Shown in pieces: positions 1-31,102 of a DNA stretch of 64,000 nucleotides. The notes under the pieces were generated by a model. It had not been told where the DNA came from, ran no database searches, and was given only the letters and a program-made list of their open reading frames with translations. The position numbers and the translations under genes were made by a program. The first letter of the stretch is position 1. The number at the start of each line of letters is the position of its first letter. This DNA is from Labilithrix sp. (GTDB lineage Bacteria > Myxococcota_A > Polyangia > Polyangiales > Polyangiaceae), in the NCBI GenBank assembly GCA_019637155.1, contig JAHBWE010000005.1:372001-436000 (forward strand), in the 5' to 3' direction.

Positions 1-679
1 CCCTTGCCTCCTCGGTCGACGCGCGCGCCTCCGCGGTCGCCGCGCGCTCGTTGCCGGTGGGAATCAAGACTCCGTCGAGGTCTGCCCAGCGCAGCCAGCG
101 CTCGCGGAGGTCCTCGAACACGCCGTCCCAAACGACGAGGCTCAGCCCGATCGACGCGAAGCGCGGCTGCGGCTGGTGGACGTAGACGCCGCCCATGAGC
201 GTGAACGACATCACCTCGCCGGCTCCGGTCTTGCCGAGCGGGTCGAACACCACGTAGTGCGTCACCCGCATTCGTTCGTAGTCGCGCAGCTTGTCGCTGA
301 GCTCGCCGCCGTCGGTGTTGGACACGATCTCGATCACGACGTCCGGCGGCTTGCCGTACTCCCACACGAAGTACGACTGCCGCCGTTCGGGGCCGGTCAC
401 CGGCTTCGGCTCGACGTCGAGGCTCAGGAACGCGTCGGGCACGATCGCCGGATTCTGCGCGATCGCGAAGACGCCGACGTTGGCGGCGGCGAAGAACCGC
501 CGCCCCGGCTTCCAGCCGCTGTAGAGCGACTCCGTGAGCAGACGCATCTGCTTCTCTGCGAACACGCTGTCCACCGGCTTGCCGTCCTCGGTGATGAGGT
601 GGCTAGTGTCCGGCGCGGGCCACGGACCGTCCGTGCCCGGCTCCATGGAGCTCGGAGAGCTGCTTTGTGCCATCGCCAT
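1..679 (-). CDS. Uma2 family endonuclease-like protein (DUF820), C-terminus off the window
   Basis: The minus-strand reading frame is open from ATG at 679 (a second in-frame ATG lies at 673) to the window edge, so the C-terminus is missing. The readable 226 residues carry the Uma2 pattern of a PD-(D/E)xK nuclease fold: VPDAFLSLDV with Asp82, then PPDVVIEIVS with Glu117, then the SDKLRDY lysine at about residue 130, followed by THYVVFDP. The last visible residues are Ala/Glu-rich and look like the start of the helical tail common in this family. Uma2 proteins are abundant in cyanobacteria and myxobacteria; their biological role is not settled. It lies 225 bp downstream of the radical SAM trio on the same strand and is probably a separate unit. 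Confidence 0.85.
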   Translation of the reverse strand, partial: MAMAQSSSPSSMEPGTDGPWPAPDTSHLITEDGKPVDSVFAEKQMRLLTESLYSGWKPGRRFFAAANVGVFAIAQNPAIVPDAFLSLDVEPKPVTGPERRQSYFVWEYGKPPDVVIEIVSNTDGGELSDKLRDYERMRVTHYVVFDPLGKTGAGEVMSFTLMGGVYVHQPQPRFASIGLSLVVWDGVFEDLRERWLRWADLDGVLIPTGNERAATAEARASTEEAR

Positions 680-784
680 CGAGTGTACCTCCCATCGCTT
701 GCGTCGTAGCCATCGCAAGCGACCGAGCACGCCACATGCCCGCACCCGCGCCCAGCGATTCCGCGCCTTTGCCTCCGCTCGCCC

Positions 785-904: not shown

Positions 905-1426
905 TCACGGCACGAGCAGTCCCTGCGCTGCCGCGAGCACCGCCGCGACGGGCACGGCGACCGCAAGCCCGCGCGCAAGCGCGCGCGGATCACGCCGCGC
1001 ACACAGCCACGCGACGAACGCGATCGCGCCTCCGGCATACCCCGCTGTCCAGGCCCGCCAGAAGTACCCAGCGTGCTCGCTGTAGATCACGAGCGCCGGA
1101 TCGGCATCCCGAACCAGCACCGCCTGACCGATCCGAAGGAGCGCGTACACCCCCGCCGCCCCCACCGCCCCAGCGGCGACGGCCACTCCAAGCCGCGCCC
1201 CATCCGCCGCGTCACCCCCGCCGCTCTCTCCGCGAGCGCTCTCGTCACCGCCCCCGTAATCTCCGCCGCGAGCGCTCTCCTTGCGTGCCGCCGCTGCCGC
1301 CGGCGTGGCGACGGTCGTGCTCTCGTCACCGTCCCCGTCATCTCCGCCGCGAGCGCTCTCCTTGCGAGCCGTCGCTGCCGCCGGCGTGGCGACGGTCGTG
1401 CTCTCGCTGCCTGCGTTCGTCGTCAT
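905..1426 (-). CDS. Membrane protein coupled to the radical SAM gene, N-terminal repeats
   Basis: Unknown family, 173 residues. ATG at 1426 overlaps the TGA of the radical SAM gene (ATGA), so the two are probably translated together. Residues 8-61 hold two copies of a 27-residue polar repeat beginning ESTTVATPAAA and rich in Gly, Asp, Ser and Arg, then a partial third copy. From about residue 77 the protein becomes hydrophobic, with likely membrane segments near 77-100, 128-143 and 151-172. A longer in-frame start at 1588 exists but would run far into the radical SAM gene. Position as last gene of the trio suggests a membrane partner, for example for export or anchoring of the modified peptide; this is inference only. 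Confidence 0.7.
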   Translation of the reverse strand: MTTNAGSESTTVATPAAATARKESARGGDDGDGDESTTVATPAAAAARKESARGGDYGGGDESARGESGGGDAADGARLGVAVAAGAVGAAGVYALLRIGQAVLVRDADPALVIYSEHAGYFWRAWTAGYAGGAIAFVAWLCARRDPRALARGLAVAVPVAAVLAAAQGLLVP

Positions 1427-2709
1427 GTACGGTCGGTCACGCTCTCGTCCCGCGACGCGCTCGCGAGCGTCGCAGGGGTCTGGGGCGTCGCAGAGGGCTG
1501 GGGCGTCTCGGGCGTCGCAGGGGTCTCGGGCGTCGCGGGGGTCTGGGGCGTCGCGGGTGCTTCGTGGCGCGCGGTAACGCGTGGGCACTCGGGGTCTGGG
1601 CCCATCGCGGTTGTGAGGTGGCGTGTCACGACCTTGCAGCCGCCGCGGCAGACCTCACGAAGCGTGCAGGATGCACATGGTTCGGGCGCGGCGCGAGGGT
1701 AGTCGCGGAAGGTCGCGAGGACCGGGTCGTCGGCCCAGCGGGGGCCGACGATGTCCGTCGCGTCGAGGCGCGTTGGCTCCGCGAAGCTGCAGGGGGCGAG
1801 CGCGCCGTCGACGCGCGTCGCCGCGAGCGCGGCGCCGGCTTCGCAGCCGAGGACGCCCCAGCGCGCGAGCTCCTCCGGGCGCGCGGCGAGGTCCGCGTCG
1901 GCGGAGAGGAACGGGACCAGCGCGCAGTCGATGCGAAGACGCATCGCGCCCGCGAGCGACGCGCTTAGCTCGCGCAGGCGGGCAGGGAAGGCGCGGACCT
2001 GCGCGGGGGAGAGGCGCCGGGTGAGGTAGTCGAGCCCCGTCGCGCGGCCCGCCGGCTTGTAGCGAAGGAGCTGCGCCTCCGTCGCGCCGAGCGCGCGCGC
2101 GCGTTCGAGCGTCGCCGCGACGTGGTCGAACGTGGCGCGCGTCAGCACGACGTTCACGCCGACGGCGACGCCCGCCGCCGCGAGTCGCGCGATGGCGTCC
2201 TCCGCCGCGCGCGACGCATCGAACCCGCGCACCGCGGCATAGTCGACGCCTGCGCCGTCGTAGCTCACGTTCACCTGCGCGAAGCGGCGGAGCTGCGCGA
2301 GCTTCCGCTCACCGAGGCCGAGCCCGCTCGTCGTCACGACCGGCGTGAGCCCGAGCGCGCGCGCCTCGTCCGCGAGCGCGCCGAGGTCGTCGCGCAGCGT
2401 CGGCTCTCCGCCGCCGAACGCCACCGTGAACACCCCCGCCGCCGCGAGCGCCCGCAGCCGCGCGACGATCTCGTCGCGTGGCGGCTCTATGCCGTCCGGC
2501 CTCGCGTCGAGGTAGCAGCCCTCACACCCCGCCGCGCAGCGCGACGTCACCGCGACATGCACCTCGAGCGGCGCGCTCGGCCTCGGCGCGGGCTCGTCCC
2601 ACAGCGCGCTCCCGGCGAGCCCGAGCGCGCGCACCCCGTCACGCTCGAGCGCGACGAGCGCAGCATCGATCTTCACCCACGCCCCCCACACCTCGTAGCG
2701 AACGATCAC
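1423..2709 (-). CDS. Radical SAM/SPASM-domain peptide-modifying-type enzyme
   Basis: GTG at 2709 overlaps the TGA of the upstream small gene (GTGA) and gives a 428-residue protein. The radical SAM cluster motif CxxxCxxC is Cys58, Cys62, Cys65, and the SAM-binding GGGEP is at 99-103. The C-terminal SPASM region has the expected seven cysteines, C289, C307, C345, C348, C354, C358 and C375, enough to ligate two auxiliary iron-sulfur clusters. SPASM enzymes typically modify ribosomal peptides (sactipeptide, PQQ and mycofactocin types) or activate sulfatases. A tail after 385 is a low-complexity Thr-Pro repeat. An in-frame extension to 3033 exists, but it would cover the whole small upstream gene. 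Direct coupling to a small Cys-containing gene supports a peptide-maturase role. Confidence 0.85.
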   Translation of the reverse strand: MIVRYEVWGAWVKIDAALVALERDGVRALGLAGSALWDEPAPRPSAPLEVHVAVTSRCAAGCEGCYLDARPDGIEPPRDEIVARLRALAAAGVFTVAFGGGEPTLRDDLGALADEARALGLTPVVTTSGLGLGERKLAQLRRFAQVNVSYDGAGVDYAAVRGFDASRAAEDAIARLAAAGVAVGVNVVLTRATFDHVAATLERARALGATEAQLLRYKPAGRATGLDYLTRRLSPAQVRAFPARLRELSASLAGAMRLRIDCALVPFLSADADLAARPEELARWGVLGCEAGAALAATRVDGALAPCSFAEPTRLDATDIVGPRWADDPVLATFRDYPRAAPEPCASCTLREVCRGGCKVVTRHLTTAMGPDPECPRVTARHEAPATPQTPATPETPATPETPQPSATPQTPATLASASRDESVTDRT

Positions 2710-3029
2710 TCGTCCCCCTCCGCCGTCGCTGCCGCATGCTGCGCCGCAACATCCGCGTGCACTGCAACATCCGATTGCACTGCAGCATCCGAGTGCGCTG
2801 CAACATCCGAGTGCACTGCAGCATCCGAGTGCGCCGCAGCATCCGCGGGCTCCGACGCTGCGCGCGCGGGCGCCTCCTCCTCGAGCGCCGCGCAGACGGC
2901 GGCGAAGACCGCGCCGCCCACCGCCGCCGTGACGAAGAGCGTATCGACCACGCTCCCGATGCTCGAGCAGTTCGCGCCATGCCCGAGCCGCACCGCGCGG
3001 ACGTGCTCCGGCTTCAGCTCCGCGCTCAC
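2706..3029 (-). CDS. Small Cys-containing peptide, candidate substrate of the radical SAM enzyme
   Basis: A 107-residue protein starting at ATG 3029, first gene of the trio. Residues 1-20 are polar (HVRAVRLGHGAN). Residues 21-49 begin with CSSIGSVVD and continue as a Gly/Ala/Val-rich hydrophobic stretch with a second cysteine at 46. Residues 66-98 are a six-residue repeat of the HSDAAV/HSDVAA type. I do not recognise the family. Two cysteines, a Gly-rich hydrophobic segment and coupling to a SPASM enzyme suggest a ribosomally made, post-translationally modified peptide. The unusual point is that the Cys/Gly part is N-terminal or central and the tail is repetitive. It could instead be a single-pass membrane protein that serves as a partner subunit. 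Confidence 0.6.
   Translation of the reverse strand: MSAELKPEHVRAVRLGHGANCSSIGSVVDTLFVTAAVGGAVFAAVCAALEEEAPARAASEPADAAAHSDAAVHSDVAAHSDAAVQSDVAVHADVAAQHAAATAEGDE
2748..2847 (-). repeat. 18-bp tandem repeat inside the small peptide gene
   Basis: Five full 18-bp units (AACATCCGAGTGCACTGC type, read on the plus strand) and a partial sixth encode the HSDAAV-like hexapeptide repeat. The period is a multiple of three, so copy-number change would keep the frame. Confidence 0.85.
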
Positions 3030-30667: not shown

Positions 30668-31102
30668 GTGATCAGAGCGTTCGAGCACGTGCACGGGCAT
30701 CTCGGGTGGCTCGGCGCCGCGTTGCTCGTTCATCCCGCCGTGCTCTTGCGGAACCGGAAGCGGCGGGCGCATCTCGCGGTCGCGTCGTCGACGGCGTTGA
30801 TCACCGCCGGGTCCGCGCTCGGGCTCTGGCTCTACGTCGCGTACCGCGAGCAGCTGAAGCGCGACATCTTCCAGGGCTCGCCCGCGGTCGGGCTCCTCTT
30901 CGAGCGGAAGGAGCACCTCGCGTTCGCGGCGGTGATGTTCGCGTGGAGCGGCTGCGCGACGTACTTCGCCGCCGCGGGCGCGAAGGGCGACCTCGCGTGG
31001 ACGCTCCGCACCGTCGCGTTCCGCTCCTTCGTCGCCGCCGCCGCGCTCGCGATCCTCGTCGCCGTGCTCGGCACGTGGGTCGCGGTCTACAAGTCCTTCT
31101 GA
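30668..31102 (+). CDS. Four-helix integral membrane protein
   Basis: 144 residues with a GTG start. Four hydrophobic segments: about 11-26, 37-57, 80-102 and 116-140. The N-terminus EHVHGHLGWLGAALLVHP has several histidines that could ligate heme or metal, reminiscent of small cytochrome b-like or DUF420-like proteins, but this is only a suggestion. Its start codon is 46 bp from the small membrane protein gene on the other strand, and its end overlaps the convergent DUF2961 gene by 16 bp. Confidence 0.7.
   Translation: MIRAFEHVHGHLGWLGAALLVHPAVLLRNRKRRAHLAVASSTALITAGSALGLWLYVAYREQLKRDIFQGSPAVGLLFERKEHLAFAAVMFAWSGCATYFAAAGAKGDLAWTLRTVAFRSFVAAAALAILVAVLGTWVAVYKSF

Follow-up and report, generated by a model that had tools for sequence, protein, structure and literature searches.

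The radical SAM enzyme with a SPASM domain that is encoded near the start of the window (the whole 64,000-nucleotide stretch that was analysed, C5:372001-436000 of a 10.1 Mb genome in 46 contigs) probably acts as a maturase that binds and modifies the small membrane protein encoded directly upstream of it, with the product retained in the membrane. In this proposal the small protein would be the substrate of the enzyme; its N-terminal strand (VRAVRLG here) is predicted to dock on a reduced, RRE-like sheet at the N-terminus of the enzyme, and docking would place the A-N-[C/S]-S-S-x-G loop that comes next at the radical site. We infer that one or more residues of the loop would be modified there, most likely the Cys or Ser at position 21. 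The membrane helix that follows the loop would keep the protein, once modified, in the inner membrane, as a partner of a TPR protein and of two further membrane proteins, here called MP-A and MP-B; given such retention this would be a system that matures a protein resident in the membrane. The mechanism would thus be RiPP-like, and a released peptide product is probably not to be expected.

The three genes at the core of the locus all lie on the minus strand and overlap one another, as the sequence-only reading had described. The small protein (P0001, 2706-3029, 107 amino acids from a GTG start) shares its stop codon with the start of the enzyme gene (P0002, 1423-2709, 428 amino acids) in a GTGA overlap at 2706-2709, and the enzyme stop overlaps the start of MP-A (P0003, 905-1426, 173 amino acids), a three-segment membrane protein, in ATGA at 1423-1426. 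That reading had proposed looking for the trio elsewhere; the genes are found in the same order in relatives, where neighbourhood genes were taken from codon-scored gene calls. Purifying selection acts on the core of the small protein (dN of about 0.08-0.16 against dS of about 0.4-1.1), and this together with the recurring gene order takes the trio beyond chance. The description of a compact trio stands for the three genes but not for the limits of the unit: the TPR protein encoded upstream (P0004, 3221-4204, minus strand, 327 amino acids, with a signal-like N-terminus and about four membrane segments) is also conserved, and the conserved unit is therefore larger than the trio. Three stretches are lengthened by tandem repeats, namely the tail of the small protein (2740-2845), the tail of the enzyme (1461-1574) and the N-terminus of MP-A (1238-1406); these expansions are local, and relatives do not share them. 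Just downstream of the trio, and outside the unit, is a gene for a putative endonuclease of the Uma2 family (2-688, minus strand, 7.7e-13).

The small protein consists of a leader-like strand (hxhRxG), the motif [AP]-N-[C/S]-S-[S/A/G]-x-G and then a single membrane helix. In the window, on the minus strand, the strand corresponds to residues 10-16 (VRAVRLG, 2982-3002), whose equivalents form a predicted beta strand in two natural fusions; the motif, near-invariant in family alignments and the proposed site of modification, to residues 18-26 (GANCSSIGS, 2952-2978); and the hydrophobic helix, seen in a hydropathy scan and helical in models of relatives, to residues 27-49 (2883-2951). Orthologues of the enzyme at 47-74% identity are present in many relatives, and directly upstream of most of them is a small protein with invariant A-N-C-S-S-x-G-S and L-F followed by a hydrophobic helix. 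The motif is the best-conserved part of the protein, although disordered in models, and the tail varies freely. The two cysteines and the Gly/Ala/Val-rich segment noted previously in the 107-residue protein are indeed there, the latter being the single predicted membrane helix; in the family alignment C21 is invariant across the Cys-type family and C46 is not. Neither the small protein nor MP-A matched a Pfam or NCBIfam family above cut-off, and the small protein had no PDB match by sequence.

The two genes are tied together by their distribution among 379 Myxococcota genomes. With presence of the enzyme called at E <= 1e-70 and that of the small protein by profiles, 83 genomes carry the enzyme; 78 of them also have the small protein, which is found in no genome among the 296 without the enzyme, as raw counts in which shared descent is not factored in. 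The two genes lie within 600 nt of each other in 62 pairs, and in nine genomes they co-occur on different contigs. Of the five exceptions, three (G027, G144 and G200) have the enzyme cut at a contig end and two (G251 and G305) carry fused variants. The pairing is therefore near-obligate, and a small precursor gene co-conserved with its modifying enzyme, one of the hallmarks of a RiPP system, is what is found. The sequence-only reading had staked its case on the small gene being conserved beside homologous enzymes, and on the enzyme not clustering with sulfatase-maturases; the gene is conserved in this position, and no sulfatase-maturase family appears among the matches listed for the enzyme.

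The enzyme itself has the ligands expected of its class. The radical SAM cluster motif, CxxxCxxC (C58, C62 and C65; 2515-2538, minus strand), lies in a match to Pfam Radical_SAM at 1e-15, and the enzyme, whose linker and SPASM cysteines run from C262 to C375 (1585-1926, minus strand), scores 31.4 bits against the SPASM model TIGR04085, whose cut-off is 27. The motif and all seven SPASM cysteines (C289, C307, C345, C348, C354, C358 and C375) had been recognised before; an eighth, C262, in the linker, can now be added. All 11 of these cluster-type cysteines are invariant in 24 homologues. Since this holds for all eight in the SPASM region, they probably suffice, judging from the alignment, to ligate both auxiliary clusters fully. 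In SuiB it is likewise a linker cysteine that completes Aux I (PMC6231123).

This ligation bears upon the idea of the small protein as a regulatory or electron-transfer subunit, its motif entering the enzyme yet staying unchanged, as it would if it served, for instance, to ligate an auxiliary cluster. There is a precedent in CteB, where a cysteine of the substrate ligates an open Aux I site (PMC6231123). With eight invariant cysteines, however, both auxiliary clusters of the present enzyme are probably already fully ligated, and in a sister family described below the motif cysteine is replaced by serine; this explanation is highly improbable.

No NCBIfam equivalog cut-off is passed by the enzyme. 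Its best NCBIfam score is to GeoRSP (TIGR04303), at 87.4 bits against a cut-off of 400, and a literature search on GeoRSP yielded no relevant paper. PqqE and the mycofactocin enzyme MftC are among its best sequence relatives (PqqE 6c8v at 1.5e-28), and both models score in all 24 members, yet the window enzyme reaches only 76.6 bits against a cut-off of 381 for PqqE and 73.8 against 265 for MftC; unlike the PqqE/PqqA/PqqD system, neither a separate PqqD nor a PqqA-like peptide was seen here. The anSME family is not among the NCBIfam matches listed, and its C/S-x-P/A-x-R target motif is absent. The proposal of a peptide-modifying or membrane-peptide system belonging to no named class is supported, in that the small gene co-occurs with the enzyme even when unlinked, the small protein matches no Pfam or NCBIfam family and the enzyme reaches no equivalog level.

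Evidence on how the two proteins may meet comes from natural fusions: the enzyme's own open reading frame has the small protein as its N-terminus in more than 20 genomes. AlphaFold2 models were made of two divergent fusions, L065 (pLDDT 88.7, pTM 0.90) and L106 (pLDDT 88.3, pTM 0.89), from input alignments in which the N-terminus of the small protein rests on five fusion rows. The residues just before the motif form a beta strand in both models (13-18 of L065 and 15-20 of L106; mean pLDDT of the strand block 82 and 77, respectively); the motif is of low confidence in both, and the hydrophobic stretch is helical. As the small part contains no other strand, the pre-motif strand must pair with one from the enzyme part; from the DSSP assignment the partner is presumably one of the enzyme's three N-terminal strands, which are nearest in sequence. 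These belong to a domain of residues 1-45 (2575-2709, minus strand) with three strands and short helices, which appears to be a reduced RRE-like domain from the AlphaFold2 secondary structure of relatives and from a Foldseek match to SuiB. None of the Pfam and NCBIfam RRE or PqqD models matched it; the strand predicted in two fusion models is what hints at possible leader recognition of the RRE type. Strand addition is the mode of leader binding by the RRE domains of CteB, in which the leader is bound as a beta strand, and of NisB and LynD, whereas the SuiB leader binds elsewhere (PMC6231123).

In one fused clade (L196-L203, L140, L168 and L169) the region between the helix and CxxxCxxC has shrunk to a short remnant; in fusions of the L196-L203 type the profile matches start at about position 46 and much of the N-terminal domain is gone. 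Docking in this clade would be in cis, and such erosion would fit a domain whose role is to recruit a separate substrate and which could be dispensed with once the substrate is tethered, although it is an observation only. One enzyme (L135) is on a contig titled as a Klebsiella pneumoniae MAG; it groups with the myxobacterial fusions and the MAG name looks wrong.

The fusions could also be taken to mean that the small protein serves as a membrane anchor or adapter, which recruits the enzyme so that it can modify the TPR protein, MP-A, MP-B or a lipid. A docking strand and a helix are the parts that an anchor needs, a fusion would anchor the enzyme permanently, and tetraether lipid synthase is among the structural matches, albeit well below SuiB. 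An anchor would have no need, however, of the disordered loop in which conservation is highest; furthermore, MP-A and MP-B sometimes lie apart from the small protein or the enzyme, whereas the co-occurrence of the latter two is near-obligate. This alternative is therefore unlikely. The reading of the small protein as substrate carries a tension of its own: if the helix spans the membrane in the fusions, modification would have to come before insertion, as the motif would otherwise be on the opposite face from the enzyme.

Enzymes at 36-46% identity occur in other Myxococcota, Planctomycetota and Geomesophilobacter (Geobacteraceae), among other named genomes, and many of them have upstream a small protein with G-x-N-P-N-S-S-S-x-G at the same place. 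The position of C21 is Ser throughout this sister family. Across the motif forms seen, the Cys/Ser and the Ser next to it are constant, the Asn before them is almost constant, with Ser in L166 and L195, and the Ser after the pair can be Ala or Gly. In the enzyme tree the Cys-type enzymes form one clade (SH-aLRT 98%), and a single branch separates Ser-type from Cys-type partners, such that only one change is needed. Two further small membrane proteins (L056 and L057), starting MRILRxRRG[FY]TTNSSGAxE[FW]LP, lie upstream of radical SAM enzymes of about 31% identity and possibly represent a wider use of Asn-Ser-Ser motifs; this YTTNSSG variant was sought in 141 genomes and not found beyond these two.

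The exchange of Cys for Ser limits the chemistry that can be considered. The earlier suggestion of a crosslink at Cys21 or Cys46 loses weight, as C46 is not conserved and the sister family has Ser in place of C21. More generally, thioether chemistry is disfavoured by this exchange and by the probably fully ligated auxiliary clusters. In anSME both auxiliary clusters are fully coordinated, and Ser or Cys at one site is converted to formylglycine via Cbeta-H abstraction (PMC8326336). The window enzyme resembles anSME, which is among the structural matches of the fusion models, in its SPASM domain, its probable full ligation of both clusters and the occurrence of Cys or Ser at one position; it differs in that no sulfatase was seen nearby. 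Since Ser and Cys appear interchangeable and both clusters look fully ligated, as in anSME, the leading guess at the chemistry, offered tentatively and by analogy, is that Cbeta-H is abstracted and the residue oxidised to a formylglycine-type aldehyde.

A classical peptide natural product, that is, a sactipeptide, ranthipeptide or cyclophane-type RiPP whose core is crosslinked, cut and exported, is what a SPASM enzyme next to a small gene with Cys in its core would first suggest, and the enzyme's fold is closest to those of SuiB and SkfB. SuiB carries out the lysine-tryptophan crosslinking of SuiA that gives streptide. It is the top solved structure found by Foldseek for both fusion models, its SuiA-bound form included, and the match is near full-length, with an N-terminal RRE-like domain, a radical SAM core and a SPASM domain with a linker cysteine in common; identity in the structural alignments is, however, 16-20%, and in place of SuiA there is a membrane-anchored substrate candidate with an N-[C/S]-S-S motif and no Lys-Trp core, and neither exporter nor protease nearby. 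SkfB and CteB share an N-terminal peptide-binding domain and a SPASM/twitch domain with the window enzyme, but they make Cys thioethers, and Cys is not obligatory here; the core cysteine required of a sactipeptide or ranthipeptide is Ser throughout the sister family. Moreover, a membrane helix follows the core, and the motif shows little of the variation seen in diversifying peptide cores. In the neighbourhoods of 80 named loci no protease or exporter is conserved, in keeping with the earlier remark that none of the usual kind is adjacent, and leader removal, export and release of a product are thus not indicated. Such a natural product is improbable.

Among the neighbouring genes, one for a TPR protein with membrane segments comes before the small-protein gene in many loci. 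Of the 80 named loci, 31 have a homologue of MP-A, which in nearly every case directly follows the enzyme; MP-B homologues are also found in 31, and in many relatives they directly follow the enzyme or MP-A. In the window MP-B, a four-helix protein of 144 amino acids (30668-31102, plus strand), stands alone about 28 kb away from the trio; it has an invariant His and a K-E-H segment, and 2 of 10 members show weak profile similarity to COX15/CtaA (best 6.6e-4). In Sandaracinus-like genomes (L188-L190 and L193) the TPR protein, small protein, MP-A and MP-B form an operon with the enzyme in the opposite orientation; genes for proteins of about 490 amino acids precede the TPR gene in these four, with purple acid phosphatase/metallophosphatase domains (Pfam) in L188 and L190. 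Polyangium and relatives (L184-L187, L176 and L183) have a second copy of the small protein start-stop coupled to a protein of about 1100 amino acids, which in L186 has TPR, DUF3857 and transglutaminase-like domains (Pfam). In L178 and L180-L182 the small protein follows TRAP transporter DctP- and TAtT-like genes (confirmed by Pfam in L180) and the enzyme is on another contig. One recurring theme is a helical-repeat partner that is probably periplasmic. In L085 a FixG/CcoG-type gene (Pfam) and a CcoP-like gene belonging to a cbb3 oxidase cluster, some 1.7 kb upstream of the enzyme, come directly before the operon; in L110 a gene of similar size precedes the enzyme, and the link could be coincidence.

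No description of the motif or of the enzyme/small-protein pair was found in the literature searched, which is weak evidence of novelty as subscription papers lay outside the search. The pair, at times fused and widespread, belongs to no described family found in the libraries and literature covered, and it can serve as a marker for a maturation system unnamed in the family libraries searched (Pfam and NCBIfam). It is conceivable, though rather doubtful, that a protein-derived cofactor or reactive group, such as a formylglycine-type aldehyde or a novel crosslink, is built inside a tiny inner-membrane protein for a membrane redox or carrier system present in several phyla, and that the fusions are self-modifying enzymes which have partly discarded their recognition domain. 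Studies of SPASM enzymes have mostly concerned the making of released peptides or of the active sites of sulfatases. The client here would instead be a single-helix protein that stays in the membrane, with a motif that is almost invariant, substrate-enzyme fusions and a Ser/Cys switch that tracks the enzyme tree; these three features make the substrate, the site and the mode of recognition directly testable with short peptides.
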